This document shows positions 2,834 to 52,617 of a stretch of 64,000 nt of DNA, piece after piece. The translations under genes were made by a program, and so were the position numbers. Each line of letters starts with the position of its first letter. Position 1 is the first letter of the stretch. The notes under the pieces are model-generated. The model made no database searches. It saw only the letters and a list, made by a program, of their open reading frames with translations, and had not been told where the DNA came from. Origin of the DNA: a virus; IMG/VR virus record IMGVR_UViG_3300036760_000139, positions 1 to 64,000 of that record. The stretch is one strand, 5' to 3'.

Positions 2834-3922
2834 TCAAAATTGCCCTCGCCCCGTGGAGGCCCCTGGAAGGCTCCAGGACAGGCGATCGGTTGTCGCCCGC
2901 TCCCCGGTGTCACCCCAGGCCCGATGTCCAGCCAGCGCCCCGAGCAGTACGCGCTCGACCAACTGCGCCATCGGTCTCCTGACCGGCTCGACGGCCTGCG
3001 CCCGGATGTACCCGGGAGTCGCAGTGCCGGATGTCCGATGTCCAAGGGCGTCGGCAACCTGGTCTTGCGTGAATCCCCCGTACCTCACCGCCCACGTCGA
3101 GAACGTCGCGCGCCCGAGTCCGGGTCCGCTCCAGGTCCGCGTTCCGGCGCGCGCCGAGGCACGGACCAGCGCCGACCGGACAGCCGCCTCGGTGGCCGCC
3201 ACCAACGACCCCGACAGTGGGAGCAGGGCAGCGAGGGTGTCCACGACCGGGACGACATGCTCATCGTTGGTCTTGCGCTCCCGCAGGAGCAGTACCTTGT
3301 CGCGCAGCGAGAGGTCGCGGGTGTGGGCGCGCATCGCCTCTGAGGCTCGCATTCCGGTGAACAGGCAGAGACCGACCGCTACCCGTGCGGGGCCTCGCAA
3401 CTCGTGCCAGAGACGCGCCATCTCCTCGGGTTCTGGCACCTGCCGGTGGCGCTCCACGACGCGCAGCCTCGGCATTCGCCACCCCGGTACGATCTCGCAT
3501 TCGAGCGCCTCACCAGCGCGCACCGTCATGCGGTAGAGCAACGCGAGTTCGGCGCGCAGCGTCCGGTTGCCCACGGGACAAGTACCCTGGCGGCGGTGTA
3601 GGACGTACCCCTGGATGTCGGTGCCAGTAAGTCGGTTGAGGATGGCCACCCCCAAAAAGTGTTCCTCAAGCCGGGCGTACTTGACCTTGTAGTAACGGAG
3701 GGTGGTCTCAGGGCTCCCGGCGTCGCGCAGTCCGGTCTTGTAGAGGTTCCACGCTTCTTGTAGCGTCACGATGCGGGGCAACGGGGCAAGTCCCGCCGTC
3801 CTCCTGTCCATGTTCCGTTCCCACTCCTCGGCATCCGGCTTCCGCCGGAAACTCGCCCGATACTCCCTCTTGTTGATCTGTCTCCTGCACCGATACACCC
3901 CGCGCTCCACGTCCCACCTCAT
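2834..3922 (-). CDS. int: Tyrosine site-specific recombinase (integrase)
   Basis: A 362-residue protein. ATG 3922 (MRWDVERGVYRC) is chosen because it overlaps the stop of the small upstream gene. A basic N-terminal DNA-binding region and a core-binding domain (about 50-140) precede the catalytic domain. Catalytic features are Arg in LFTGMRASEA, Lys in RERKTNDEH, Arg in GLGRATF, His in ALGHR and nucleophile Tyr in TPGYIRAQ. The first His of the usual HxxR box appears to be Gly here, which is tolerated in some family members. It is read leftward from the repressor side and ends next to the tRNA and candidate att region. It should integrate and, with an excisionase, excise the phage. Confidence 0.9.
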   Translation of the reverse strand: MRWDVERGVYRCRRQINKREYRASFRRKPDAEEWERNMDRRTAGLAPLPRIVTLQEAWNLYKTGLRDAGSPETTLRYYKVKYARLEEHFLGVAILNRLTGTDIQGYVLHRRQGTCPVGNRTLRAELALLYRMTVRAGEALECEIVPGWRMPRLRVVERHRQVPEPEEMARLWHELRGPARVAVGLCLFTGMRASEAMRAHTRDLSLRDKVLLLRERKTNDEHVVPVVDTLAALLPLSGSLVAATEAAVRSALVRASARAGTRTWSGPGLGRATFSTWAVRYGGFTQDQVADALGHRTSGTATPGYIRAQAVEPVRRPMAQLVERVLLGALAGHRAWGDTGERATTDRLSWSLPGASTGRGQF

Positions 3923-4029
3923 TGAGGTTTTGTCCCTCTGCGCTTTCGTAGTTGGGTCAATAGGAAAATCCAGAGGAGTGCGCCCATCACATACGGCACC
4001 CAAAGGAAGATCCAGAGGAGCGTTCTCAT
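3919..4029 (-). CDS. Small membrane protein between repressor and integrase
   Basis: A 36-residue frame (MRTLLWIFLWVPYVMGALLW...) with one long hydrophobic segment and a basic tail (RKRRGTKPQ). It starts 8 bases after the repressor stop and its stop overlaps the integrase ATG (ATGA), so the three genes look like one translationally coupled leftward unit. The function is unknown. A lysogeny-expressed membrane peptide, for example for exclusion, is a guess from its position. Confidence 0.5.
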   Translation of the reverse strand: MRTLLWIFLWVPYVMGALLWIFLLTQLRKRRGTKPQ

Positions 4030-10165: not shown

Positions 10166-10685
10166 TCTAGAGAAGAAGCGCGAGTACCAGCGCAAGCACC
10201 ACGCAGCCAACCTGGAGAAGTACCGCGAGTCCAACCGCAAGTACAGGGCGGCGCACCGCGAGGAACTCAACGCGCTCCACCGCAAGCGGTATGCGGAGAA
10301 TCCCGAGAAAGCGCTCGTGCGCACCCGAGAGTACAGCCGCCGGCGCCGAGTGGAGCATCCCGACAAAACGCGCAGGGCCGCGCGCAAGTGGAGAGAAGGC
10401 AACCCCGAGAGGGTACGTGAATACCAACGCAAAGCCGACCTTCGTCGCAAGTATGGCCTTGCTGTCGAGGAATACGATGCAATGGTGGCCGCGCAAGATG
10501 GTCGTTGTGCGATCTGCGGAGAGATTCCAAGTGGGAGTCGGTCGGTGCTCGATGTGGACCATGACCATGCCACCGGAACTGTCCGTGGCCTGCTCTGCCA
10601 TGGGTGCAACAAGGCCACTGGGTTCTTGCACGACAACCCGGACCTCCTCCAAAAGGCAATCAACTATCTGCGGAGAACTGCGTGA
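10155..10685 (+). CDS. Endonuclease VII-like HNH nuclease, copy 1
   Basis: A 176-residue protein from ATG 10155. A long basic helical N-terminus (about 1-100) has repeated KYR..NR, EYSRRRR and REYQRK elements. It leads into a T4 endonuclease VII-type domain: CAICG, the LDVDHDHATGTVRGLLC core and CHGCN zinc pair, then FLHDNPDLL. The family includes junction-resolving and homing nucleases. Two paralogues with the same core occur at 26870 and 30964, which favours mobile or homing behaviour over a single housekeeping resolvase. It overlaps both neighbours. Confidence 0.85.
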   Translation: MPRDLEKKREYQRKHHAANLEKYRESNRKYRAAHREELNALHRKRYAENPEKALVRTREYSRRRRVEHPDKTRRAARKWREGNPERVREYQRKADLRRKYGLAVEEYDAMVAAQDGRCAICGEIPSGSRSVLDVDHDHATGTVRGLLCHGCNKATGFLHDNPDLLQKAINYLRRTA

Positions 10686-22345: not shown

Positions 22346-22630
22346 GTGCCAGTGACTATCACCTTCGCGGCCTCGATCAGCGATAGAAAGACAGCAATCC
22401 AACGCTCTGGCCTGCTCGAGGGCGGGGGGGCCGTGACGTTCGACCTGCCCGAGACCGAACTCGGCGCACTGGCCGCACTCCTGCCACTCGCCCGGGTCCC
22501 ACTGCGGATCACAGTCGAAGTAGACACCGAGACGGCCATCATCCCGCAGCAGGAGGAGCCAGCAGACACCGGCGAGGAGCCGAGACCAACATGGGCAGGG
22601 CAACGAAAGGCGCACAAGAGGCGGGATTAA
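22346..22630 (+). CDS. Hypothetical protein upstream of terminase
   Basis: A 94-residue protein from GTG 22346 with a GGGAGGGG ribosome site. The N-terminal beta-rich half (VTITFAASISDRKTAIQRSG) is followed by an acidic linker and a basic tail (WAGQRKAHKRRD). Its last 40 bases overlap the small terminase gene. Function unknown. Confidence 0.5.
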   Translation: MPVTITFAASISDRKTAIQRSGLLEGGGAVTFDLPETELGALAALLPLARVPLRITVEVDTETAIIPQQEEPADTGEEPRPTWAGQRKAHKRRD

Positions 22631-23169
22631 GCAATGACCGCCAGGAAATGTTCTGTCATGCGTATCTTGCCAATGGGCTGAATGCGAAGGCCGCTTGTAT
22701 TGCAGTTGGTTACAGCGCCAAGGGCGCAGAGGTGCAGGCGGCAAGACTGTTAGGCAGTGCTAGGGTGCAGGCTCGCATAGCTCAGTTGCAGGCGCCCATC
22801 ATCGAAAAGCTGGAGATCAGCACCGAACGTGTCCTCGACGAGGTCGCGGCTTGCGCCTTTGGTCGCGCTGACCGCATCTTCAAGTGGGGACCCGGCGGCG
22901 TGCTGATCGTAGACATGGACCAGGTGCCAGAGGACCAGAGGGCTGCGGTCGCCGAGGTTTCGCAGACGTTCAGCGAGAGTAGCAGCACTGTGCGCCTAAA
23001 GATGCACGACAAACTCTCGGCCCTCAGACTCTTGGGCCAATACCTCAAATTGTGGGGCGACAACAAGATTGAACTTACGGTACCTTGGGCCAAGGAGTTG
23101 GCGGCCATGACCGCTGACGAACTCCGGGCCCGGGCAGACGCCTTGCGGGCGGCGCGGGAGAAGGGATGA
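22591..23169 (+). CDS. terS: Terminase small subunit
   Basis: A 192-residue protein. LSNDRQEMFCHAYLANGLNA, then AACIAVGYSAKGAEVQAARLLG is the N-terminal helix-turn-helix of the Terminase_2 family. A central oligomerisation region and a basic-acidic C-terminal helix follow. It binds the packaging site on phage DNA and hands it to the large subunit, encoded about 660 bases downstream after three small genes. Confidence 0.88.
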   Translation: MGRATKGAQEAGLSNDRQEMFCHAYLANGLNAKAACIAVGYSAKGAEVQAARLLGSARVQARIAQLQAPIIEKLEISTERVLDEVAACAFGRADRIFKWGPGGVLIVDMDQVPEDQRAAVAEVSQTFSESSSTVRLKMHDKLSALRLLGQYLKLWGDNKIELTVPWAKELAAMTADELRARADALRAAREKG

Positions 23170-23548: not shown

Positions 23549-23835
23549 TGAGAGACCAAGGGTGTCGGCAGTGCCAGCAACTCACGTGCGGCGATTGCGG
23601 GATGCACGACGGCTACTACCTGGATGGCGTCTATCACTGGGCGGATATCGGAAATGCCCAGTTCACGACCAACCAACGTCCATTCGCATGTCCCGTTTGC
23701 AACGGTGGCGGCACGGTCTCGCGTCCGCCTTTCGTAGCTGGTGATTGTCCGCAGTGGGTGCAAGGTGGTGGACCATACGTATACCCATGCGAGGCTTGCA
23801 ATGGCTCCGGGATTGTGTGGGGTCCTCTGCGGTGA
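23548..23835 (+). CDS. DnaJ-type zinc-finger protein
   Basis: A 95-residue protein from GTG 23548. It carries CRQCQQLTCGDCG at the N-terminus and two CxxCxGxG-like repeats, CPVCNGGGTV and CEACNGSGIV, the pattern of the DnaJ/HSP40 zinc-binding region. No J-domain is present. It overlaps the terminase start by 4 bases (GTGA). Confidence 0.65.
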   Translation: MRDQGCRQCQQLTCGDCGMHDGYYLDGVYHWADIGNAQFTTNQRPFACPVCNGGGTVSRPPFVAGDCPQWVQGGGPYVYPCEACNGSGIVWGPLR

Positions 23836-24515
23836 GCCGTGACCACGAGTTGCAGCGGTACTTGACCGAACTGGCCATCGACGAGCAGCGGTACAAGGCA
23901 GACTGCTGGACGTGGCTGGTCGAGCAAGTTGTGACGATCGACGAGGCGACCAAGTCCGAGCGCCGGTGGCCCGCGCATCTCGACTACCTGCACGACTTCG
24001 TTGACGTGCTCAGCGACCCGGACGAGCATTACATCGCCGTCCCCAAGAGTCGCCGGATGATGGTCTCCTGGTGCCTGGCCGCCTGGTGCGCACACCTGGC
24101 CCGGTACCACGAGAACGTCCTTGTACTCTGGCAGTCCGAGACCGAGGCCAAGGCCGCCGAGGCCGTAGACCGGCGCATGGTGTTCATCGAGGACCACCTG
24201 ATCGAACCCGTTCTCCGGCGACCCTACAAGGGACAGCGGACCAAGGACGGACTGATCGGCCGGCTGACGTACCTGCCTACTGGCAGTCGGGTGATTGCCG
24301 TTGCCCAGGGCGCTGATGTGTTCAGGTTCTACACGCCTAGCGTGGTTGTTCTCGACGAGGCGGACTTCCAGGACGAGGGGCACGATGCGCTGGTGGCGGC
24401 TATCCCGTTCGGCGAAAAGGGCGGCAAGGTCATCCTCGTTTCCTCGAGTAACGGCCCCGGGCGGCCAGTGGCAACGATCTGCAAGGGCGTGGGTTTCGTT
24501 CGGTATCGATCCTAA
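23832..24515 (+). CDS. terL: Terminase large subunit, ATPase half (split gene)
   Basis: A 227-residue protein from GTG 23832. Variant Walker A is PKSRRMMVSW (71-80), Walker B with catalytic Glu is VVVLDEADF (171-179) and the coupling motif is ILVSSSNG (201-208). It ends 19 residues later at TAA 24513-24515, before any nuclease domain. The missing nuclease half is at 27205-28071 in another reading frame. The two halves together cover a normal large terminase with no visible duplication. It powers DNA translocation into the prohead, if the halves assemble or the RNA is spliced. Confidence 0.88.
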   Translation: MSRDHELQRYLTELAIDEQRYKADCWTWLVEQVVTIDEATKSERRWPAHLDYLHDFVDVLSDPDEHYIAVPKSRRMMVSWCLAAWCAHLARYHENVLVLWQSETEAKAAEAVDRRMVFIEDHLIEPVLRRPYKGQRTKDGLIGRLTYLPTGSRVIAVAQGADVFRFYTPSVVVLDEADFQDEGHDALVAAIPFGEKGGKVILVSSSNGPGRPVATICKGVGFVRYRS

Positions 24516-24528
24516 CATTGGAGAAATT

Positions 24529-24819
24529 ATGCGAGTAAGTGACAAACAGATCGAGAAGATGGCTCAATCAGGGGCAGATGACATGCTCGAATTGATAGCA
24601 CAAGAATGCAGGGACGCTCGTTACGAACTGAAAATCTCTATGAATGAACACAAAAAGACCATCACTGAATTAAAACACGCCGAGGCACTGACTGAGAAAA
24701 AAGAGGCAGAACTGACCGCGTTGCGTGCGTATATCGCTACGCATAACGCGCCTGTCCATGACCCGCTGAGACAGTATCGGGTACATCGAGGGCCGTGCGG
24801 CGAAGATGGTTGTCACTAA
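24529..24819 (+). CDS. Hypothetical coiled-coil protein inside the terminase insert
   Basis: A 96-residue protein from ATG 24529 (GGAGAAATT upstream), starting 13 bases after the terminase stop. Visibly lower in GC than its neighbours. The middle is a charged coiled coil (KTITELKHAEALTEKKEAEL) and the C-terminus has HRGPCGEDGCH. It looks like recently acquired cargo. Function unknown. Confidence 0.6.
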   Translation: MRVSDKQIEKMAQSGADDMLELIAQECRDARYELKISMNEHKKTITELKHAEALTEKKEAELTALRAYIATHNAPVHDPLRQYRVHRGPCGEDGCH

Positions 24820-24890
24820 GTAAGCGGGCGTCGTGCGGTCGGCATCGCGTTCCGACCAGCCGGATGATCCGGTCGGCGCCCTGATTTTGT

Positions 24891-24961
24891 CGCGGGGTCT
24901 CTGGTGAGGAGCGCGGGCCCATAACCCGGGCAGGAGAGTTCAACTCTCTCCCCCGCAACCA
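24891..24961 (+). tRNA. Initiator-type tRNA-fMet (CAT) with short D-arm
   Basis: The acceptor CGCGGGG/CCCCGCA leaves the first pair as C-A, the mark of bacterial initiator tRNA. The anticodon arm has GGG/CCC next to loop CCCATAA (CAT at 24920-24922), also an initiator feature. The T-arm GAGAG-TTCAACT-CTCTC is perfect, and discriminator A plus CCA are encoded. The D-arm is short (CTC/GAG, 3 pairs, 7-base loop) and there is a G-G mismatch at the base of the anticodon stem, so the body is 68 bases rather than about 74. It may be functional or degenerating. Confidence 0.7.
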
Positions 24962-25409
24962 CCTTGAGGCTCGCGCCTGCATTGTATTTCACGCGGATGG
25001 TTTCAGCGGCCATCCAGGAGAAATAAACGTGGATCTGAACCCTCGCTCGTCGGGGCAGTAGGATCCCTCCGAGCCCCACAGAGCTGGTGCTGATTCATGC
25101 CGGCCAGGGGCTCCCTTGCCCGGAGGTGTCAGGGTTTAATGAAGACACCTGGCGCGTCACCTGCGCCAATGCGTGTCCGGAACACGCGGGAGTCGGATTG
25201 GCTATAGAGCTCAAGCCGACGACAGTGGTGAGCTAGGCGGGAGGCAGTCCCGCCAATCTTGCTACGCAATGCCGCGCAAAACAGGATTGCGCAGGATGAA
25301 TGACACGTCGCCGCCCTCTGACGAGCGGGTGGATAGGGTAAAGCCCAAGGTCTAGACCAAGGATGACGGCCCCCAGGTGGATCTAAAGGCCACCCGGCGA
25401 CTCCAGATC
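24962..25409. ncRNA. Hairpin-rich non-coding stretch in the terminase insert
   Basis: About 450 bases without a convincing gene between two tRNAs. Strong hairpins are AGGTGTC/GACACCT (25124-25130 with 25144-25150), GCGTGT/ACACGC (25171-25176 with 25182-25187), GGCGGGA/TCCCGCC (25236-25242 with 25248-25254) and GCAAT/ATTGC (25266-25270 with 25285-25289). Such density is unusual in this gapless genome and suggests a structured RNA, perhaps part of an intron. I could not find group I core motifs by eye. Confidence 0.4.
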
Positions 25410-25485
25410 GCGCTGATAGCTCAATTGGTAGAGTCCCGGTCTCCAAAACCGGTGGCTGGGGGTTCGAGTCCCTCTCGGCGCGCCA
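25410..25485 (+). tRNA. tRNA-Trp (CCA anticodon), CCA end encoded
   Basis: Full cloverleaf. The acceptor GCGCTGA/TCGGCGC has one T-G pair, the D-stem GCTC/GAGT ends in G-T, the anticodon stem CCGGT/ACCGG has loop CTCCAAA (anticodon 25443-25445 = CCA), and the T-arm is GGGGG-TTCGAGT-CCCTC. Discriminator G is the expected Trp identity base. CCA is at 25483-25485. It lies inside the split terminase locus. Confidence 0.92.
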
Positions 25486-25590
25486 ATCGTATACGCCCGC
25501 CTGACGCGCAGGGCGTACAACTGGTCCAGGGTGACACCTAGAGGCGGCCGACTACCCATCGCCTGTCTCAGAGGCAAGGAGAGGCACGCA

Positions 25591-25809
25591 ATGGCAAGGA
25601 CGAAGAAGAAAGCGCGCCCGGTCAACCCCCGCTTCCTCCGGGACCTGACCTGTGACCGCGTAATCGTCGGCCGCAACCCTCGGGTGTGCGAGACGTGCCT
25701 TGGGGCCAGTGTTTTGTTCAACATACCCGGCAAGATATACGACTGTCCGGCGTGCTTCGGGATGGCGATTGAGTGGAACGGCAGTCTGGATGGAGGCGAT
25801 GGGCAGTAA
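25591..25809 (+). CDS. Zinc-ribbon protein
   Basis: A 72-residue protein from ATG 25591 with CAAGGAGAGG upstream. A basic start (MARTKKKARPVNPRFLRDL) is followed by CETCLG...YDCPACFG, two Cys pairs 20 residues apart. Its end overlaps the next gene. Function unknown. Confidence 0.55.
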   Translation: MARTKKKARPVNPRFLRDLTCDRVIVGRNPRVCETCLGASVLFNIPGKIYDCPACFGMAIEWNGSLDGGDGQ

Positions 25810-25966
25810 CCAGAATGTGAAGGCCAAGCGTAACAAGCGTGGCGCGACCGGCCTGAAGAAGGTCAGGCATCACAAGGGCAACCCGCCCGGCAGAATTGGG
25901 GACGGCTCGGCAAAGTTCCCAGCACGGCAACCACAGGGCGCGAAACAGAAGAGGGGGCAGCCATGA
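25799..25966 (+). CDS. Basic 55-residue protein
   Basis: ATG 25799 has GGAGG 2 bases upstream; ATG 25790 is an alternative. Very rich in Lys, Arg and Gly (NVKAKRNKRGATGLKKVRHH), with no hydrophobic core, so probably nucleic-acid binding or disordered. It overlaps the next gene by 4 bases. Confidence 0.5.
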   Translation: MGSNQNVKAKRNKRGATGLKKVRHHKGNPPGRIGDGSAKFPARQPQGAKQKRGQP

Positions 25967-26868
25967 AGTCCTTCACCGAGATCCTGGCCGCTGTCTACGA
26001 CCCGGGGTTCTGGCAGGTCATTGACGAGTGGGGCGATTACTGCATCTTCTGTGGGGCGTCCGATGGCAGGGACCAGTTCGAGCGGGGTGAGATCCACCAC
26101 TACGGCTCCTGCCTGTTGCGCGAGATACGGGTTCACCTGATGCAGCAGGTTGCCATGCCCCGCCGGTTCAGGGAGGCAGCCATCGAGCAACTCGCGGCGT
26201 TTCAGGCGATCAAGGCCGAGAGGGCCGAGGCCGACCCGTCGTACCCGGACTACGGGAGTGGCGGACTGTCGCCGACTGCCGCCGAGGCCGAAGCGATGCC
26301 AGCGGCAGAAGTAGTGCCCGAGGCGGAGGTCTACCGCACTGCGCGCGCCGAACCCGAGGTGGTGCCTGTAGTCCAACCTGAGCGTTTGCACAGTTGGCAG
26401 TCAATGAAGAACGGCAAGGCCGCGCGCTGCACGAACTGTGGCCTGGTCGCGCTCAATGGCGCTCCGGCCCTCAACGTCGGTGTGGTCCGATGTCAAGCTC
26501 CCCACCATCCAGAACCAAGCCAGTCTGATGTGTGTCCCGGCCGCAACCCAGACTTGCCAGCGCCCGCTGAGGTCAAGGCCGTTCAGCCAGCGGTCCCCTT
26601 GGTCCAGGTCATGTGCCCGCGGTGCCACGCCACCGAGGTCGTTCCGGCAACCGGCGGCGTTCTACCGGACCTGCCGCAGATCACACTAGGCAACGGCCCG
26701 TTCATGGTCGTCTCATGGGTACAGCCTGCCCTCGGCAGGCAGACAGGGGTTTACTGCAAGACGTGTTGGTCGGACACCATTGCCTCGTTCATCACGGCGA
26801 CTCTCCCGCCCGCCGTCATCTGCCATCCGGCACAGACCAGTGATCCCGGTCCCGGCCAACCGGCCTGA
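25963..26868 (+). CDS. Zinc-finger protein with a captured virion-gene fragment
   Basis: A 301-residue protein from ATG 25963. The N-terminal domain (about 1-90) has CIFCGASDGRDQF and HHYGSC, like an HNH-type treble clef. After an Ala/Glu/Pro linker, Cys pairs recur (CTNCG near 151, CPRCH near 212, CKTCW near 266). The segment NVGVVRCQAPHHPEPSQSD (about 171-189) is encoded by 55 bases nearly identical to a virion gene at 52008-52062 but read in a different frame. Function unknown; parts of the C-terminal half may be of chimeric origin. Confidence 0.55.
   Translation: MKSFTEILAAVYDPGFWQVIDEWGDYCIFCGASDGRDQFERGEIHHYGSCLLREIRVHLMQQVAMPRRFREAAIEQLAAFQAIKAERAEADPSYPDYGSGGLSPTAAEAEAMPAAEVVPEAEVYRTARAEPEVVPVVQPERLHSWQSMKNGKAARCTNCGLVALNGAPALNVGVVRCQAPHHPEPSQSDVCPGRNPDLPAPAEVKAVQPAVPLVQVMCPRCHATEVVPATGGVLPDLPQITLGNGPFMVVSWVQPALGRQTGVYCKTCWSDTIASFITATLPPAVICHPAQTSDPGPGQPA
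26476..26530 (+). repeat. 55-base copy of a segment at 52008-52062
   Basis: GTCGGTGTGGTCCGATGTCA onward matches 52008-52062 at 52 of 55 positions. In the 52 kb gene it encodes SVWSDVKLPTIQNQASLM; here it is read one base out of register. The match ends abruptly on both sides. It is direct evidence of recombination between the virion region and the terminase insert. Confidence 0.85.
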
Positions 26869-26869
26869 T

Positions 26870-27208
26870 ATGCCAAGAGACATCAAGAAGAGGCGCGAGA
26901 ACAACCGGAGGTATCAGGCAAGGCTTCGTAAGGAGAATCCCGAGAGAGAACACGCGAACACACGTAGGCGTTTTCTCATGCGTGCGTATGGTCTCACCCC
27001 CGGAGAGTACGACGCGCTGGTGGTTACTCAAAATGGACGGTGTTCCATCTGTGGGTGTGGAGATGAACGCCTATGTGTTGACCATGACCACGTAACCGGA
27101 ATTGTCCGTGGCCTGCTCTGCCGTAACTGCAATGGCGGTATCGGACTCTTGCAAGATAATCCAGACCTGACCGAGAAGGCAACCGCCTACCTGCGGGGGG
27201 GTGCGTGA
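26870..27208 (+). CDS. Endonuclease VII-like HNH nuclease, copy 2
   Basis: A 112-residue protein from ATG 26870. A basic N-terminus (MPRDIKKRRENNRRYQARLR) is followed by YGLTPGEYDALVVTQNGRC, the CSICGCG zinc pair, LCVDHDHVTGIVRGLLC and CRNCNGGIGLLQDNPDL. The core is close to copies 1 (10155) and 3 (30964), also at DNA level (GTTGACCATGACCACGTAAC). Its stop overlaps the GTG of the terminase nuclease half, so it sits exactly at the downstream boundary of the insert, as expected of a homing endonuclease that brought the insert. Confidence 0.85.
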   Translation: MPRDIKKRRENNRRYQARLRKENPEREHANTRRRFLMRAYGLTPGEYDALVVTQNGRCSICGCGDERLCVDHDHVTGIVRGLLCRNCNGGIGLLQDNPDLTEKATAYLRGGA

Positions 27209-28071
27209 GTGTTTCTTTGCGCGTCTTGCGGCCCATTAAGACTGCTGGCGGGTGGACGGTTTTGCCTATTCATTATTCTCACGATCCAGCCAAGACTCGC
27301 GAATGGGCAGCCGAGGCCAAGATGACGTATCCCCAAGAGGCGGACTGGGATCGAGAGTTAGAGATTGATTTCGGCGCCCTGAGTGGCGTGAGAGCTTATC
27401 CAAAATTCGCTCGCCCGCTGCACCTTCGCCATGCTGCCGATGTCATCTATAACCCCATGCTCCCACTTTGTTTGTGCATCGACTTCAATGTCGGGTTCAT
27501 GAGTTGGCCGGTCGCGCAGATCGTCAACAACGAGCCGGTGGCCATTACCGAGATCACGTTGGAGCCAGCAGACATCCCGAGCATGGCCAGGGCTTTCCGC
27601 AACAGGTTCCCGGCGCACCCCGCCGAACTCTGGATCTTCGGCGACGCCTCGGGTCACGCGCGCTCAGTCCAGAGCCAGCAGAGCAACTACGACCTACTGC
27701 GCCTGGCGCTTTCCGACTACTCGGCGCCCGTGGTGATGATGGTCCCGGAGGTCAACCCTCCGATCCACACCCGCCTGAACAGCGTCAACACGAAACTGAT
27801 GACGCCGGCGGGCAAGCCGGGATGCGTGATCTCGGATGCCTGCCTGAATCTGATTGCGGACTTCGAGGAAGTGCTCCTCGATCCGAAGGGCCACGGCGTA
27901 GTCAAAGTGTCGGACCCCCGGCACCCCTACTTCAAGCGCACCCACAGTTCGGACGGATGGGGGTACTTCTGCGCCAGGGAATGGCCAGTGGTCGAGGAAC
28001 TGTTCCGTAGCGAGACCAAACCCGAGAAGATGCCCGAGTTGGTGTACGGGCGCCTCGCGGGAGACCTGTAA
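27205..28071 (+). CDS. terL: Terminase large subunit, nuclease half (split gene)
   Basis: A 288-residue frame from GTG 27205 that overlaps the endonuclease stop. WTVLPIHYSHDPAKTREWA corresponds to the segment following the ATPase coupling motif in intact terminases. The RNase H-like nuclease has Asp93 in CIDFNVGF, Asp147 in IFGDASG and Asp250 in THSSDGWGYF. The start used in the cell is uncertain; a spliced mRNA would not need this GTG. It would cut the concatemer during packaging. Confidence 0.85.
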   Translation: MSVSLRVLRPIKTAGGWTVLPIHYSHDPAKTREWAAEAKMTYPQEADWDRELEIDFGALSGVRAYPKFARPLHLRHAADVIYNPMLPLCLCIDFNVGFMSWPVAQIVNNEPVAITEITLEPADIPSMARAFRNRFPAHPAELWIFGDASGHARSVQSQQSNYDLLRLALSDYSAPVVMMVPEVNPPIHTRLNSVNTKLMTPAGKPGCVISDACLNLIADFEEVLLDPKGHGVVKVSDPRHPYFKRTHSSDGWGYFCAREWPVVEELFRSETKPEKMPELVYGRLAGDL

Positions 28072-28780: not shown

Positions 28781-30964
28781 ATGCCGATCCTGCCCCCTGT
28801 CCCGGGCGGCCTGCCGCCGGTGCCGCCACCGTTCGCCAGCGCGATGATGGCCCCGATGATGCCGGCGCAAGCTCCGGCACCGCCAACCCCTGAGACCCAG
28901 GACGTTGACGCCGTGATCCGCCAACTCGAGGCTCCGATCGAGGAGCGTTTGCTCTACAAGCAGGGCGGGGCCAACGTCTTCCACGCGAAGATCCTCCGAT
29001 TCCTGATCTCCCGGCGCGACGAGTCGCTCAACGCCATGAAGAACAGGCGTGAGCGGTGGGACGACGTTGACGACCACATGCAGATGCGCGTGGACTTGAC
29101 GCAAGGGGCCCGCCTCGGCGATGGCAGCCGGGACTCGCGCAAGAAGGAGATGCCGGTCCGCAGGTCTGTCGTCGTCCCCCTGATGTTCGCCACGCTGTCG
29201 GTTCGCCATGCTCAGGGACTCTCGTTGCTACTCGCCCGGGAACCTGAGTGGCAAGTCGAGGGTACGGAACCCGGCGACGTGTGGCGCGCGAAGCTCATGG
29301 AGGCGCTGATCGCCTACGACCTCCGCGAGACACGCTACCCGCTCGCCGCTCACCAGTTGGTGTACGACCTCGAACGGTACGGCCTGGCGGCCTGGTACGT
29401 GACGTTCGAACGCGAGAAGGGTGTTCTCCTGACCCCGCCACTCATCACCCCCGGGAAGTGGCCGGAGTTGGCGGAGCGGGCGATTCGGATGGTCATGCCG
29501 GGAGCCTTCGAACCGGGGCGCGAGTGGGCGCTGCGGCGCGAGTTCAACAACATCTCTCCGGTCAACCCTCGGCGTTTCTACTCCGATCCCCGCCGGTCAA
29601 TCGCCGACCTCCAGCGTGGCGAGTGGTGCGGTCACGGGTGGGACACGGGGTACATCGCGCTCAAGGAGAAGGACCAGGAACTTGACGGCCCGTACTTCAA
29701 TCTCGAGGCCGTGAAGAAGAACTGCGGCTCAGCGCATCGCCGTGACAACCGCAGGCGCGACGAACGGCAGCAGGCGCAGACCAAGATCGACGACTACGAT
29801 ACCGGGCCGATGGAAGCGCACCACCTCCAAGTACGACTCATCCCGCGCGACCTTGATCTGGCCGACTCGGAAAAGCCCGAGATTTGGTGGTTTACGTGGA
29901 TCGACGACGAGGTGATTGTACGTTGCCACCCGACGCCCTACGGGCACGGCAACTATACGTACGGTGCCGCCGAGGGAATTCCCGATGCACACTCCCTTGA
30001 GAACCCGGGGTGGGGCGAGAACCTGGCGGGCCTGCAGTTGCTCGCAAACTGGGTTTTCAACGTGCGCATCGACGCACTCCGCAAGTTGCTCAATGGCGGC
30101 GGCCTGGTGTACTCGCCAAATTTCTTCAACGAGCACGACATCACACATCCGCATCCGGGCGGTGCCGTGCGGCTGACCAAGAAGGCGGAGGAAGCGGTAC
30201 TCAACGGGCGCATTCCTGTGACCGCCATGTTTGGCCAGTTGGTGACCGGCGACCCGACGGCCGGCCACCTTCGGGACCTCCAGTACATCACTGAGCTGGT
30301 AGCCAGACTTGCAGGGGCCAACGACCCGACGCAGGGCATCCCGTTGCCCGAGAGCCGGACCCTCGGCGAGGTCAAGGCGGTGCTCGCCGCCAGTTCGCAG
30401 CGCATCGCTACGACCGTTCGCCTCGCGGATGTGCAGGCGATCAAGCCGGCCGCCGAGCAGTGCTTTGCGAATCGGCGCCAGTGGACATCGGAGGAGAAGT
30501 GGTATCGGATCACGGGCGACCTGGCCAAGGAGCTCGAAGGGAACGTGGCGAAGTTCGGCAAGCGGATCAGCCGCGAGGGTGGCTCGTTACGGGCGCTCAT
30601 CGGCCCAAACGACGTGTGGGGCAACTACGACTACATTTCGCATACCGGCAACCTTTCGGTTGACCCCTCCAAGAGTCCCGAGACGTGGCTCAAGGGACTC
30701 GATGTGATCCAGAAGTTGATTCCGCTCCTCAGCAATAAGCAGATCAATCCCGAGGGTATGTTCCCCGACATTACCATGTGGTTGTCGGAATTCATGCGGT
30801 CCCTCGGCATCAAGAATGTCGAGCAAATGTACAGGACTCTGGCGCCGATGGCCCCCCCGGGCCCGCCGGGAATGCCGCCGCCTGGCGGCCCACCGGCAGG
30901 ACCGCCGGGGGTGGTACCAGACCAGCAATTTCAAGATCAAGTCCGCGCCGGAAACTTTGCGTGA
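28781..30964 (+). CDS. Portal protein
   Basis: A 727-residue protein from ATG 28781. A Pro-rich N-terminus leads to RRERWDDVDDHMQMRVDLTQ, RRSVVVPLMFATLSVRHAQG and a long alpha/beta body (to about 620) typical of large podovirus portals. The segment LQLLANWVFNVRIDALRKLL resembles the portal stem. The tail is Pro/Gly-rich (PPGPPGMPPPGGPPAGPPG). Its size and place after terminase support the call. It forms the 12-fold ring for DNA entry and tail attachment. Confidence 0.85.
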   Translation: MPILPPVPGGLPPVPPPFASAMMAPMMPAQAPAPPTPETQDVDAVIRQLEAPIEERLLYKQGGANVFHAKILRFLISRRDESLNAMKNRRERWDDVDDHMQMRVDLTQGARLGDGSRDSRKKEMPVRRSVVVPLMFATLSVRHAQGLSLLLAREPEWQVEGTEPGDVWRAKLMEALIAYDLRETRYPLAAHQLVYDLERYGLAAWYVTFEREKGVLLTPPLITPGKWPELAERAIRMVMPGAFEPGREWALRREFNNISPVNPRRFYSDPRRSIADLQRGEWCGHGWDTGYIALKEKDQELDGPYFNLEAVKKNCGSAHRRDNRRRDERQQAQTKIDDYDTGPMEAHHLQVRLIPRDLDLADSEKPEIWWFTWIDDEVIVRCHPTPYGHGNYTYGAAEGIPDAHSLENPGWGENLAGLQLLANWVFNVRIDALRKLLNGGGLVYSPNFFNEHDITHPHPGGAVRLTKKAEEAVLNGRIPVTAMFGQLVTGDPTAGHLRDLQYITELVARLAGANDPTQGIPLPESRTLGEVKAVLAASSQRIATTVRLADVQAIKPAAEQCFANRRQWTSEEKWYRITGDLAKELEGNVAKFGKRISREGGSLRALIGPNDVWGNYDYISHTGNLSVDPSKSPETWLKGLDVIQKLIPLLSNKQINPEGMFPDITMWLSEFMRSLGIKNVEQMYRTLAPMAPPGPPGMPPPGGPPAGPPGVVPDQQFQDQVRAGNFA

Positions 30965-31287
30965 TGCCCTACAAAGATCCCGAGAAGCAACGCGAGGCCT
31001 CCCGCAAGTGGAACGCGGCGCACCCCGAGAAGAGACGCGCGGCCAATCACAAATGGAGTGCGGCACATCCCGAGAAGGTACGCGACCGGCACCTTGCGAT
31101 GGCGGCCGCACAACATGGCCAGTGCGCCATTTGTAGGCGCGGTGACAGGGTGTTGTGTGTTGACCACAACCACGTTACCGGCACCGTTCGCGGTCTGATC
31201 TGTCAGAAGTGCAACTCCGGAATTGGGATGTTATGCGACAGCCCCGACATTCTTCGTGGTGCGGCTGACTATCTAGAAAAGGAGTAA
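30964..31287 (+). CDS. Endonuclease VII-like HNH nuclease, copy 3
   Basis: A 107-residue protein; ATG 30964 overlaps the portal stop. MPYKDPEKQREASRKWNAAH and NHKWSAAHPEKVRDRHL are basic repeats, followed by CAICRRG, LCVDHNHVTGTVRGLIC and CQKCNSGIGMLCDSPDIL. It is a paralogue of the proteins at 10155 and 26870. It lies at the 3' edge of an essential gene without disrupting it. Confidence 0.85.
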   Translation: MPYKDPEKQREASRKWNAAHPEKRRAANHKWSAAHPEKVRDRHLAMAAAQHGQCAICRRGDRVLCVDHNHVTGTVRGLICQKCNSGIGMLCDSPDILRGAADYLEKE

Positions 31288-51264: not shown

Positions 51265-52617
51265 ATGGGCGGCGGCGGTTCAACCACCAATCCAGTCATC
51301 CCACAGGCTCTACTTCAACTCCTCGGGGGGACTGTAAGTAACGTTCTCCCGAATCAGAATGCCGCATGGAAAGGAACATGGCAAAAGAACGGAACCGATG
51401 CCACCCCCCAAGAAGCGGCAAACAACCAAGCTATACAGACGAAAATCGACCAGATGCAGCAGGCGCTTTCCAATCCAAACCTGCCTCCGGCGACGCGCAC
51501 CTCGATCGAAGCACAACTCGCTGCGGAAACGGAGAAACTCGCCGGGTGGACGACGAAGCCCAGCGAGTTCATGCAGAAGCAGAATTACGGGGATTACTAC
51601 GGCAATGTCCAGGTACCGGACACCGCGGCCGCCGCCCTCGAACAGGCGCTCGGCGGGCAGGGCATAGAGGGGTTCTCCGCTCCGTCGGTCTATGAGGGGT
51701 TGGCCGCGAGCTCGGCGCTCCAGAATCCGAGTCAGACGCTATTCGGCCAGGAGTTCACGGACCCGAATGCCCGCCAGATCGCGAACTTCAACCCGGCCCA
51801 GACCGAGATCGCAAGTTACCTCGGCAACTCGTGGCTCCCTCCGACTACCACGGGCGGACGGTCGCAGTATGTCGATGCGCGCCAGACCGCAGGCGAGAAG
51901 GCCGCCCTCACGCAGGCCGGACAGTTGCAGGGCATCGGGGCGAAGACCCCCGACCTCAGCGACTTTGCGAAGAACATCAACACCAATCCAGCAATCAAGA
52001 ATGCCCTGTCGGTGTGGTCCGATGTCAAACTCCCCACCATCCAGAACCAGGCCAGTCTCATGGGTCTTGGCCGCTCGTCGTCGCTACTCAAGGGCATTGA
52101 CACCTCACAGAATCAGTTCCTCCAGCCGATCATCCAAGACCAACTCAACCGCGAGGAGAACGCGATCAGCCGCGGATTCACGGGCGCACAGGCCAATGTC
52201 GCGGCGCAACAGACCGCAGCACAGGCCCAGGCCCAACGTGAGGCCGAGGACTACGCCCGGAAACTCTCCGCCGGCAATCAGGTTCAGGCCCAGGACCAGG
52301 CCACACTTGATGCCCAGCAGGCAGACTACTTGCGGCGGCAGGGCCTCAACGAGCAGGAAGTCGCCAACGCCATGACCTCCGGTCAGAACCAGTTCGGCAA
52401 CCTGTTCAACCTGTCGAATGCCGACACCCAGCGCAAGTTAGCTGCCAGCCAGCAACTCACAAGCATGGCGGGAACCGAGCGCGATTGGGCGAAGGAGCAG
52501 GGAGACTTCGAACTACAAGATGCGTTGCGTCGCCAGGCACTCGGCGAGAACCTGCTGTTCCAGCCGCTCGGCGGCACGGCGTCGATGGTCGGGTCAAAGA
52601 CCACCGGCGGGAAGTAG
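51265..52617 (+). CDS. Internal virion/ejection-like protein
   Basis: A 450-residue protein. MGGGGSTTNPVIPQALLQLL, then Gln/Ala-rich helices (AAQQTAAQAQAQREAEDYAR). The composition and place before two similar proteins and the giant protein fit DNA-ejection proteins of podoviruses. Bases 52008-52062 are the source or partner of the copy in the terminase insert. No enzymatic motif is seen. Confidence 0.55.
   Translation: MGGGGSTTNPVIPQALLQLLGGTVSNVLPNQNAAWKGTWQKNGTDATPQEAANNQAIQTKIDQMQQALSNPNLPPATRTSIEAQLAAETEKLAGWTTKPSEFMQKQNYGDYYGNVQVPDTAAAALEQALGGQGIEGFSAPSVYEGLAASSALQNPSQTLFGQEFTDPNARQIANFNPAQTEIASYLGNSWLPPTTTGGRSQYVDARQTAGEKAALTQAGQLQGIGAKTPDLSDFAKNINTNPAIKNALSVWSDVKLPTIQNQASLMGLGRSSSLLKGIDTSQNQFLQPIIQDQLNREENAISRGFTGAQANVAAQQTAAQAQAQREAEDYARKLSAGNQVQAQDQATLDAQQADYLRRQGLNEQEVANAMTSGQNQFGNLFNLSNADTQRKLAASQQLTSMAGTERDWAKEQGDFELQDALRRQALGENLLFQPLGGTASMVGSKTTGGK

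Follow-up and report, generated by a model that had tools for sequence, protein, structure and literature searches.

Can the large terminase subunit (TerL) of a tailed phage work as two separate polypeptides? The question is raised by a locus in the window, a stretch of 64,000 bases (b) that corresponds to bases 1-64000 of the virus record IMGVR_UViG_3300036760_000139 (65,684 b). Here the TerL gene consists of two open reading frames (ORFs). The same arrangement occurs in a close relative, the contig G002, and in a distant phage contig, L023. Our answer is that this TerL is probably an old and stable two-polypeptide enzyme, with a probability of about 0.78. Its parts would be translated separately and assembled as a complex. 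The break separates motif III from the lid, and the nuclease would have been exchanged at least once.

Part 1 (23832-24515, + strand) encodes 227 amino acids (aa), with a GTG start and a TAA stop directly after motif III and its helix. It presents the P-loop ATPase of a TerL: a deviant Walker A (K72-SRRMMV-S79), a Walker B (VVVLDEAD, residues 171-178) and the coupling motif III (SSSNGPG, residues 204-210). It matches the terminase family phrog_2 of PHROG (E 1.4e-7). A profile of the window, G002 and Flavobacterium phage immuto matches T4 gp17 (E 5e-23). The split terminases do not have the GKT of Walker A. It consists of KSRRMMVS in the window (24045-24068, residues 72-79 of part 1) and KSRQLMCS in L023.

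Part 2 (27205-28071, + strand) encodes 288 aa, and its GTG start overlaps the stop of an endonuclease gene. It contains a lid (about residues 1-65) and an RNase H-like nuclease. The three acidic residues of the nuclease, D93 (DFN), D147 (GDASG) and D250 (HSSDGWGY), align with those of known TerLs. Part 2 matches the terminase family phrog_10250 (E 1.7e-9), and by tblastn known phage TerLs with E-values down to 1e-12. Motifs, PHROG and tblastn agree with the original prediction, made from the sequence before these searches, of a large terminase divided into an ATPase ORF ending at 24515 and a nuclease ORF starting at 27205. ATPase and nuclease are not joined in one polypeptide. Stops and 2,689 bp separate the two ORFs, and G002 and L023 likewise have two ORFs.

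We aligned both parts to intact TerLs to place the break. Part 1 ends just past motif III and the next helix. Part 2 begins just ahead of a strand and helix (GGWTVLPIHYSHDPAKTREWAAEA) and continues into the nuclease. We take this segment to be the lid, from general knowledge of TerL structure and from the alignment. Since part 1 ends after motif III and part 2 starts before the lid, the break appears to sit within the ATPase and not at the hinge between the ATPase and nuclease domains. One alignment, in which the 14 C-terminal residues of part 1 were misaligned to immuto, was left out of this placement. Together, the halves miss nothing of an intact TerL, as predicted from their complementarity. 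Joined, they have about 15 extra residues compared with intact T4-type TerLs. Part 1 continues for about 10 residues beyond the motif III helix, and part 2 has about 13 residues ahead of the lid. A split intein was considered and rejected, because so little sequence leaves no room for N- and C-terminal intein segments at the two ends. The intein had already been excluded by the original prediction.

The age of the split can be judged from G002 (IMGVR_UViG_3300032053_009225, 6,148 b; loci L002/L005), an independent contig about 90% identical to the window. It has both TerL parts, with 91% (part 1) and 89% (part 2) identity and identical ORF ends. The gap between them measures 1,858 b in G002. 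It does not contain the endonuclease VII gene, the tRNA-Trp segment, the tRNA-like fold or the AT-rich 96-aa ORF of the window. What both gaps share is a small CxxC ORF, a larger ORF (of 357 aa in G002) and two noncoding stretches. The 357-aa ORF has its stop one base ahead of the GTG of part 2. Because G002 is split without these elements, the endonuclease VII gene, the tRNAs and the ORF at 24529-24819 appear to have arrived after the split. The original prediction had connected the HNH nuclease and the tRNAs with the making of the split, and had emphasized a packaging motor with this cargo. Neither idea agrees with the comparison. G002 has the same two ORFs and ends without HNH gene or tRNA, and in L023 different cargo occupies the same break: the cargo is variable and the break is conserved.

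The differences between the window and G002 also indicate how the parts are read. By codon position, part 1 shows 19/12/68 differences overall and 2/1/6 in its last 12 codons. The last codons differ, among others, as TAA/TAG and CGA/AGA (window/G002). This third-position bias up to the stop suggests that part 1 is read as protein to its end. Part 2 shows mostly third-position differences from the first codons after its GTG. These differences are not uniform along part 2: beside the endonuclease gene they affect 13 of 20 codons, and within some 500 bp downstream the number drops to 1 of 20. Part 1 presents a weaker rise towards the 96-aa ORF. Such gradients could be co-conversion-like tracts, as homing would leave.

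The distant case was found with a part 1 profile in 379 genomes of one bacterial phylum, where the search gave one short ORF of 219 aa. It is located in L023, a 44.7-kb phage contig within a bacterial genome assembly. This ATPase ORF ends in ...GGGKLILISSPAPGEFQSIFEGRWSA-stop, at the same break point as part 1 of the window. A second ORF of 310 aa lies 2.5 kb downstream on the same strand. It begins with the lid (GWNAVSYHYSSHPEKTTEWAEHEALSYP...) and continues with a terminase nuclease (phrog_5653, E 1.5e-12). The genes in the L023 gap are unrelated to those of the window: a short CxxC ORF, an MptE-like ORF (a weak match, E 0.0075) and a 335-aa ORF without family match. No HNH gene and no tRNA were found in this gap. 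The contig also has large portal-like and capsid-like ORFs, judged by eye. The N-terminal halves of the window and L023 match each other with E 5e-14, and their lids are 43% identical over 53 aa (E 2e-11). Neither lid has a good match among 12 intact TerLs. In this comparison the window lid matches only that of L023, and it gave nothing at a meaningful E-value against 50,697 phage records.

We made phylogenetic trees of the domains. With core and lid together, the split terminases form one clade, both with 12 intact TerLs (support 99/98) and with 10, seven of them T4-type (99/99). This clade falls within the T4-type TerLs (100/99 and 100/100, respectively). On the other hand, a single split clade is rejected in the nuclease-domain tree (approximately unbiased test, p = 2e-5). 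The nuclease of the window is of the type of the L015, L016, SSU5-like and KBS-S-2A terminases, and that of L023 belongs to the same type as in Paenibacillus phage API480. TerL is an intact single ORF in L015, L016, L022, API480, Rhodothermus phage RM378, immuto and LR756508. Since core and lid form one clade and the nucleases do not, the trees support a broken motor common to both lineages and at least one exchange of the nuclease between terminase families.

Taken together, we propose the following history. The break would have arisen once, in an ancestor shared with the distant phage lineage, as the trees support. Part 1 would be the catalytic core of the ATPase up to motif III, and part 2 the lid fused to the nuclease. 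Both would be translated from their own ORFs in one late operon, as their own starts and stops and the stop-start overlap at part 2 suggest. Co-transcription, assembly and function of the two parts are what we infer from this arrangement. The parts would join non-covalently, and the lid of part 2 would complete the ATPase fold. Afterwards, gap genes would have been gained and lost freely. The endonuclease VII gene and the ORF at 24529-24819 would have entered later, one at each edge of the gap, leaving the co-conversion-like tracts in the adjacent terminase. The nuclease exchange, supported by the trees, would have come after the split or together with it. Recombination downstream of the lid may explain why the lid keeps the history of the motor while the rest of part 2 changes.

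Several points weigh against this history. The ATPase core alone supports the split clade moderately (88/92). To find relatives, we searched viral contigs, genome contigs, phages and plasmids with both halves, the lid, the portal, the small terminase and the conserved noncoding DNA. The only members recovered were G002, L023 and the related contig G001, which is cut off inside part 1. That makes just two independent split lineages, with no more in about 770 bacterial genomes (N-terminal half), 379 genomes (C-terminal half), a plasmid collection and the viral contigs. AlphaFold models of the single parts, made from few aligned sequences, had predicted local distance difference test (pLDDT) scores of 44 and 45 and were not used. 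Finally, the case for two chains comes from sequence comparison. This same point would favour a different reading, in which the parts are not one enzyme: the phage could be defective with a degraded terminase, or the halves could act separately. The Walker A without the usual GKT also agrees with that. We consider it the least probable of the rival explanations. All motifs are intact, and both parts are strongly conserved in amino acids relative to synonymous change, as the 19/12/68 differences of part 1 illustrate. The same split is kept in a distant lineage, and functional TerLs with deviant Walker A motifs also exist.

The strongest competitor on the origin of the break, although unlikely, is that the terminase was split separately in each of the two lineages, at a favoured break point. 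This would still be compatible with two polypeptides. It agrees with the moderate support of the core-only tree and with the different nuclease families of the window and L023. In addition, the BLAST scores of the N-terminal halves to intact TerLs (immuto) are no lower than those between the two split ones. However, the core and lid clade at 99/99 and the specific match between the two lids argue for a common origin. A different origin, a recent fracture of an intact terL by the incoming endonuclease VII gene, comparable to mobE in Aeh1 nrdA, is very improbable. The endonuclease gene lies exactly at the edge of part 2, it has relatives of its type elsewhere in the same genome, and the third-position divergence from G002 is highest beside it and decays downstream. 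Nevertheless, a relative without the endonuclease should then have an intact gene, and G002 is still split. L023 has the same break and no HNH gene. The present endonuclease gene as the cause of the split is therefore ruled out by G002. The split could still go back to an old homing event whose nuclease was lost afterwards.

The original prediction left the choice between an intron and two polypeptides. The latter is the better option, and the former is weakened by the comparison with G002 and L023. As an intron, the insert would be a self-splicing group I or II element carrying ORFs and tRNAs, and the spliced mRNA would give a full-length TerL. Such introns are documented in the terL of phage CB7 (PMC7344957), SIOphi (PMC11878797) and the Jug phages (PMC12363816), and the noncoding stretches of the gap are conserved at 93% between the window and G002. 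A search for group I and II introns with Rfam gave no match in the window or G002. This search is not a valid test of the intron, because it also failed to detect two group I introns of T4, td and nrdB, at the gathering cut-off, and td even at a loose E-value. What speaks against splicing is the coding content of the gap. In the window, the 339 bp directly ahead of part 2 belong to the endonuclease gene. In G002 this position is taken by the end of the unrelated 357-aa ORF, and both genes code up to the start codon. Hence no site shared by the two could serve as an intron 3' end, and cis-splicing is disfavoured. Where an intron would have its 3' domain, beside the putative second exon, both have coding sequence. 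Moreover, a 300-bp gene follows directly behind the part 1 stop in the window, and the genes in the L023 gap are unrelated. The start codon of part 2 overlaps the upstream stop, and the joined ORFs would be about 15 residues longer than intact T4-type TerLs. A spliced product is an improbable alternative to two chains.

The genome setting agrees with a real split. The two ends of the 65,684-b record are bridged by the contig G001, which is colinear with them, so the genome of 65.7 kb is close to complete. No second copy of TerL, which the original prediction had named as one objection, was found by tblastn with either half in this record. The other objection, an assembly error, is argued against by the same collinear halves in the independent contig G002. 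Upstream of part 1 lies the terminase small subunit (22591-23169, + strand; PF03592, E 2.9e-27). Downstream of part 2 lies a portal protein of SU10 type (28781-30964, + strand; PF23899, E 1.5e-10).

The gap of the window (24516-27204, + strand; 2,689 bp, and 1,858 bp with other content in G002) contains the following features, all on the + strand. The 96-aa ORF (24529-24819) has a predicted coiled coil and is AT-rich (48% versus 62% GC). It is not in G002 and was probably inserted later, behind part 1. It is followed by a noncoding double hairpin (24826-24883), common to the window and G002. At about 24889-24961 there is a tRNA-like fold, not in G002, with a CAT triplet in its middle hairpin loop. 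It had been described as an initiator-type tRNA, which the searches do not bear out: there is no ARAGORN call, and the Rfam matches (tRNA-Sec and tymovirus tRNA-like models, 23 bits, E 0.07-0.16) are below the cut-off. The noncoding stretch at 25204-25295 has stable hairpins and is 93% identical in G002, above the neighbouring ORFs. The Rfam search gave no family for it. The tRNA-Trp (CCA) at 25410-25485, likewise predicted, was recovered by ARAGORN and Rfam (66 bits). It lies within a 190-bp stretch not in G002. The bases 25306-25433, which comprise about 100 bp ahead of this tRNA and the beginning of the tRNA itself, are 75% similar to the region upstream of tRNA-His in G001. The tRNA-Trp segment may derive from the other tRNA locus of the phage.

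Next is a small zinc-ribbon-like CxxC ORF (25591-25809; 69% identity in G002). Upstream of it, a 62-bp noncoding stretch (25506-25567) resembles 2938-2877 on the - strand, the 3' end of a tyrosine-integrase-like ORF (2834-4003, - strand). The resemblance is 74% in the genome of the window and 85% in G001, near its tRNA-Arg. This repeat could be a shared leader, an att-like site or a recombination remnant. The ORF of 301 aa with CxxC motifs (25963-26868) has a counterpart of 357 aa in G002, with 55% identity. It contains a 58-bp segment (26476-26533) that repeats, at 93% identity, a portion of another gene (52008-52065). Most of this segment is missing in G002, and it appears to be a short templated insertion.

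The last gene is the endonuclease VII-type HNH gene (26870-27208; PF02945, E 6e-21), not in G002. It directly follows the 301-aa ORF and runs into part 2, whose GTG it overlaps, at the downstream edge of the insert where the original prediction had it. Three genes of this type are present in the window, at the edges of other genes: 10203-10685, 26870-27208 and 30964-31287. The first and the last, which lies right behind the portal gene, are 41-52% identical to the gap gene, and the first is also present in G001. These genes appear to be a spreading family.

Phage enzymes made of two chains are known, such as the NrdA of Aeh1, the polymerase of phages 25 and 44RR and the T4 topoisomerase (PMC2988022). 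In gene 43 (43A/43B), the gap contains a seg endonuclease in Aeromonas phage 25 and only untranslated sequence in 44RR (PMC2988022). The window and G002 form a similar pair, with and without an endonuclease in the gap. As in 43A/43B and Aeh1 nrdA-mobE, an essential phage enzyme is present as two ORFs. Those proteins co-purify or assemble. The split TerL differs in being a packaging ATPase, in the break between core and lid, in being shared with a distant lineage and in having other genes in the gap. Previous works described group I introns in the terL of Pectobacterium phage CB7, SIOphi and the Jug phages, the last with terL in 2-3 fragments. Splicing was shown at the RNA level by reverse transcription PCR, nanopore cDNA or RNA-seq (PMC7344957, PMC11878797, PMC12363816). 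Those genes are likewise fragmented, and an HNH gene often lies between the fragments. However, the gap ends in the window are coding sequence that differs between relatives.

The large terminase of Parabacteroides phage PDS1 (gp45/gp46) is annotated as two coding sequences without explanation (PMC10773633). We set it aside because the break point differs: the gene is interrupted within the nuclease, past the lid, and the gap is 92 bp. This interruption may come from a frameshift or a sequence error. The T4-type TerLs (T4 gp17, immuto, RM378) have the same ATPase core as part 1. Nevertheless, they are single chains with a T4-type nuclease, and the nuclease of the window is the DFN...GDASG type of the SSU5-like and KBS-S-2A terminases. 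Our search of the openly accessible literature turned up no description of a terL divided between ATPase core and lid.

TerL is regarded as one chain, and packaging models assume that lid and nuclease are covalently tied to the ATPase core. A TerL broken between core and lid, and under selection in distant phages, would mean that the covalent link is dispensable. We lean slightly towards a clade of tailed phages that has long had its ATPase completed in trans, with the core in one protein and the lid and nuclease in the other. The separate gene would have let the nuclease change while the motor stayed. The split TerL would offer a ready system for asking what the lid does. It also matters for TerL as a marker gene. 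Pipelines that expect one full-length TerL would miss such phages or count two, and the core and nuclease of one phage may differ in history.

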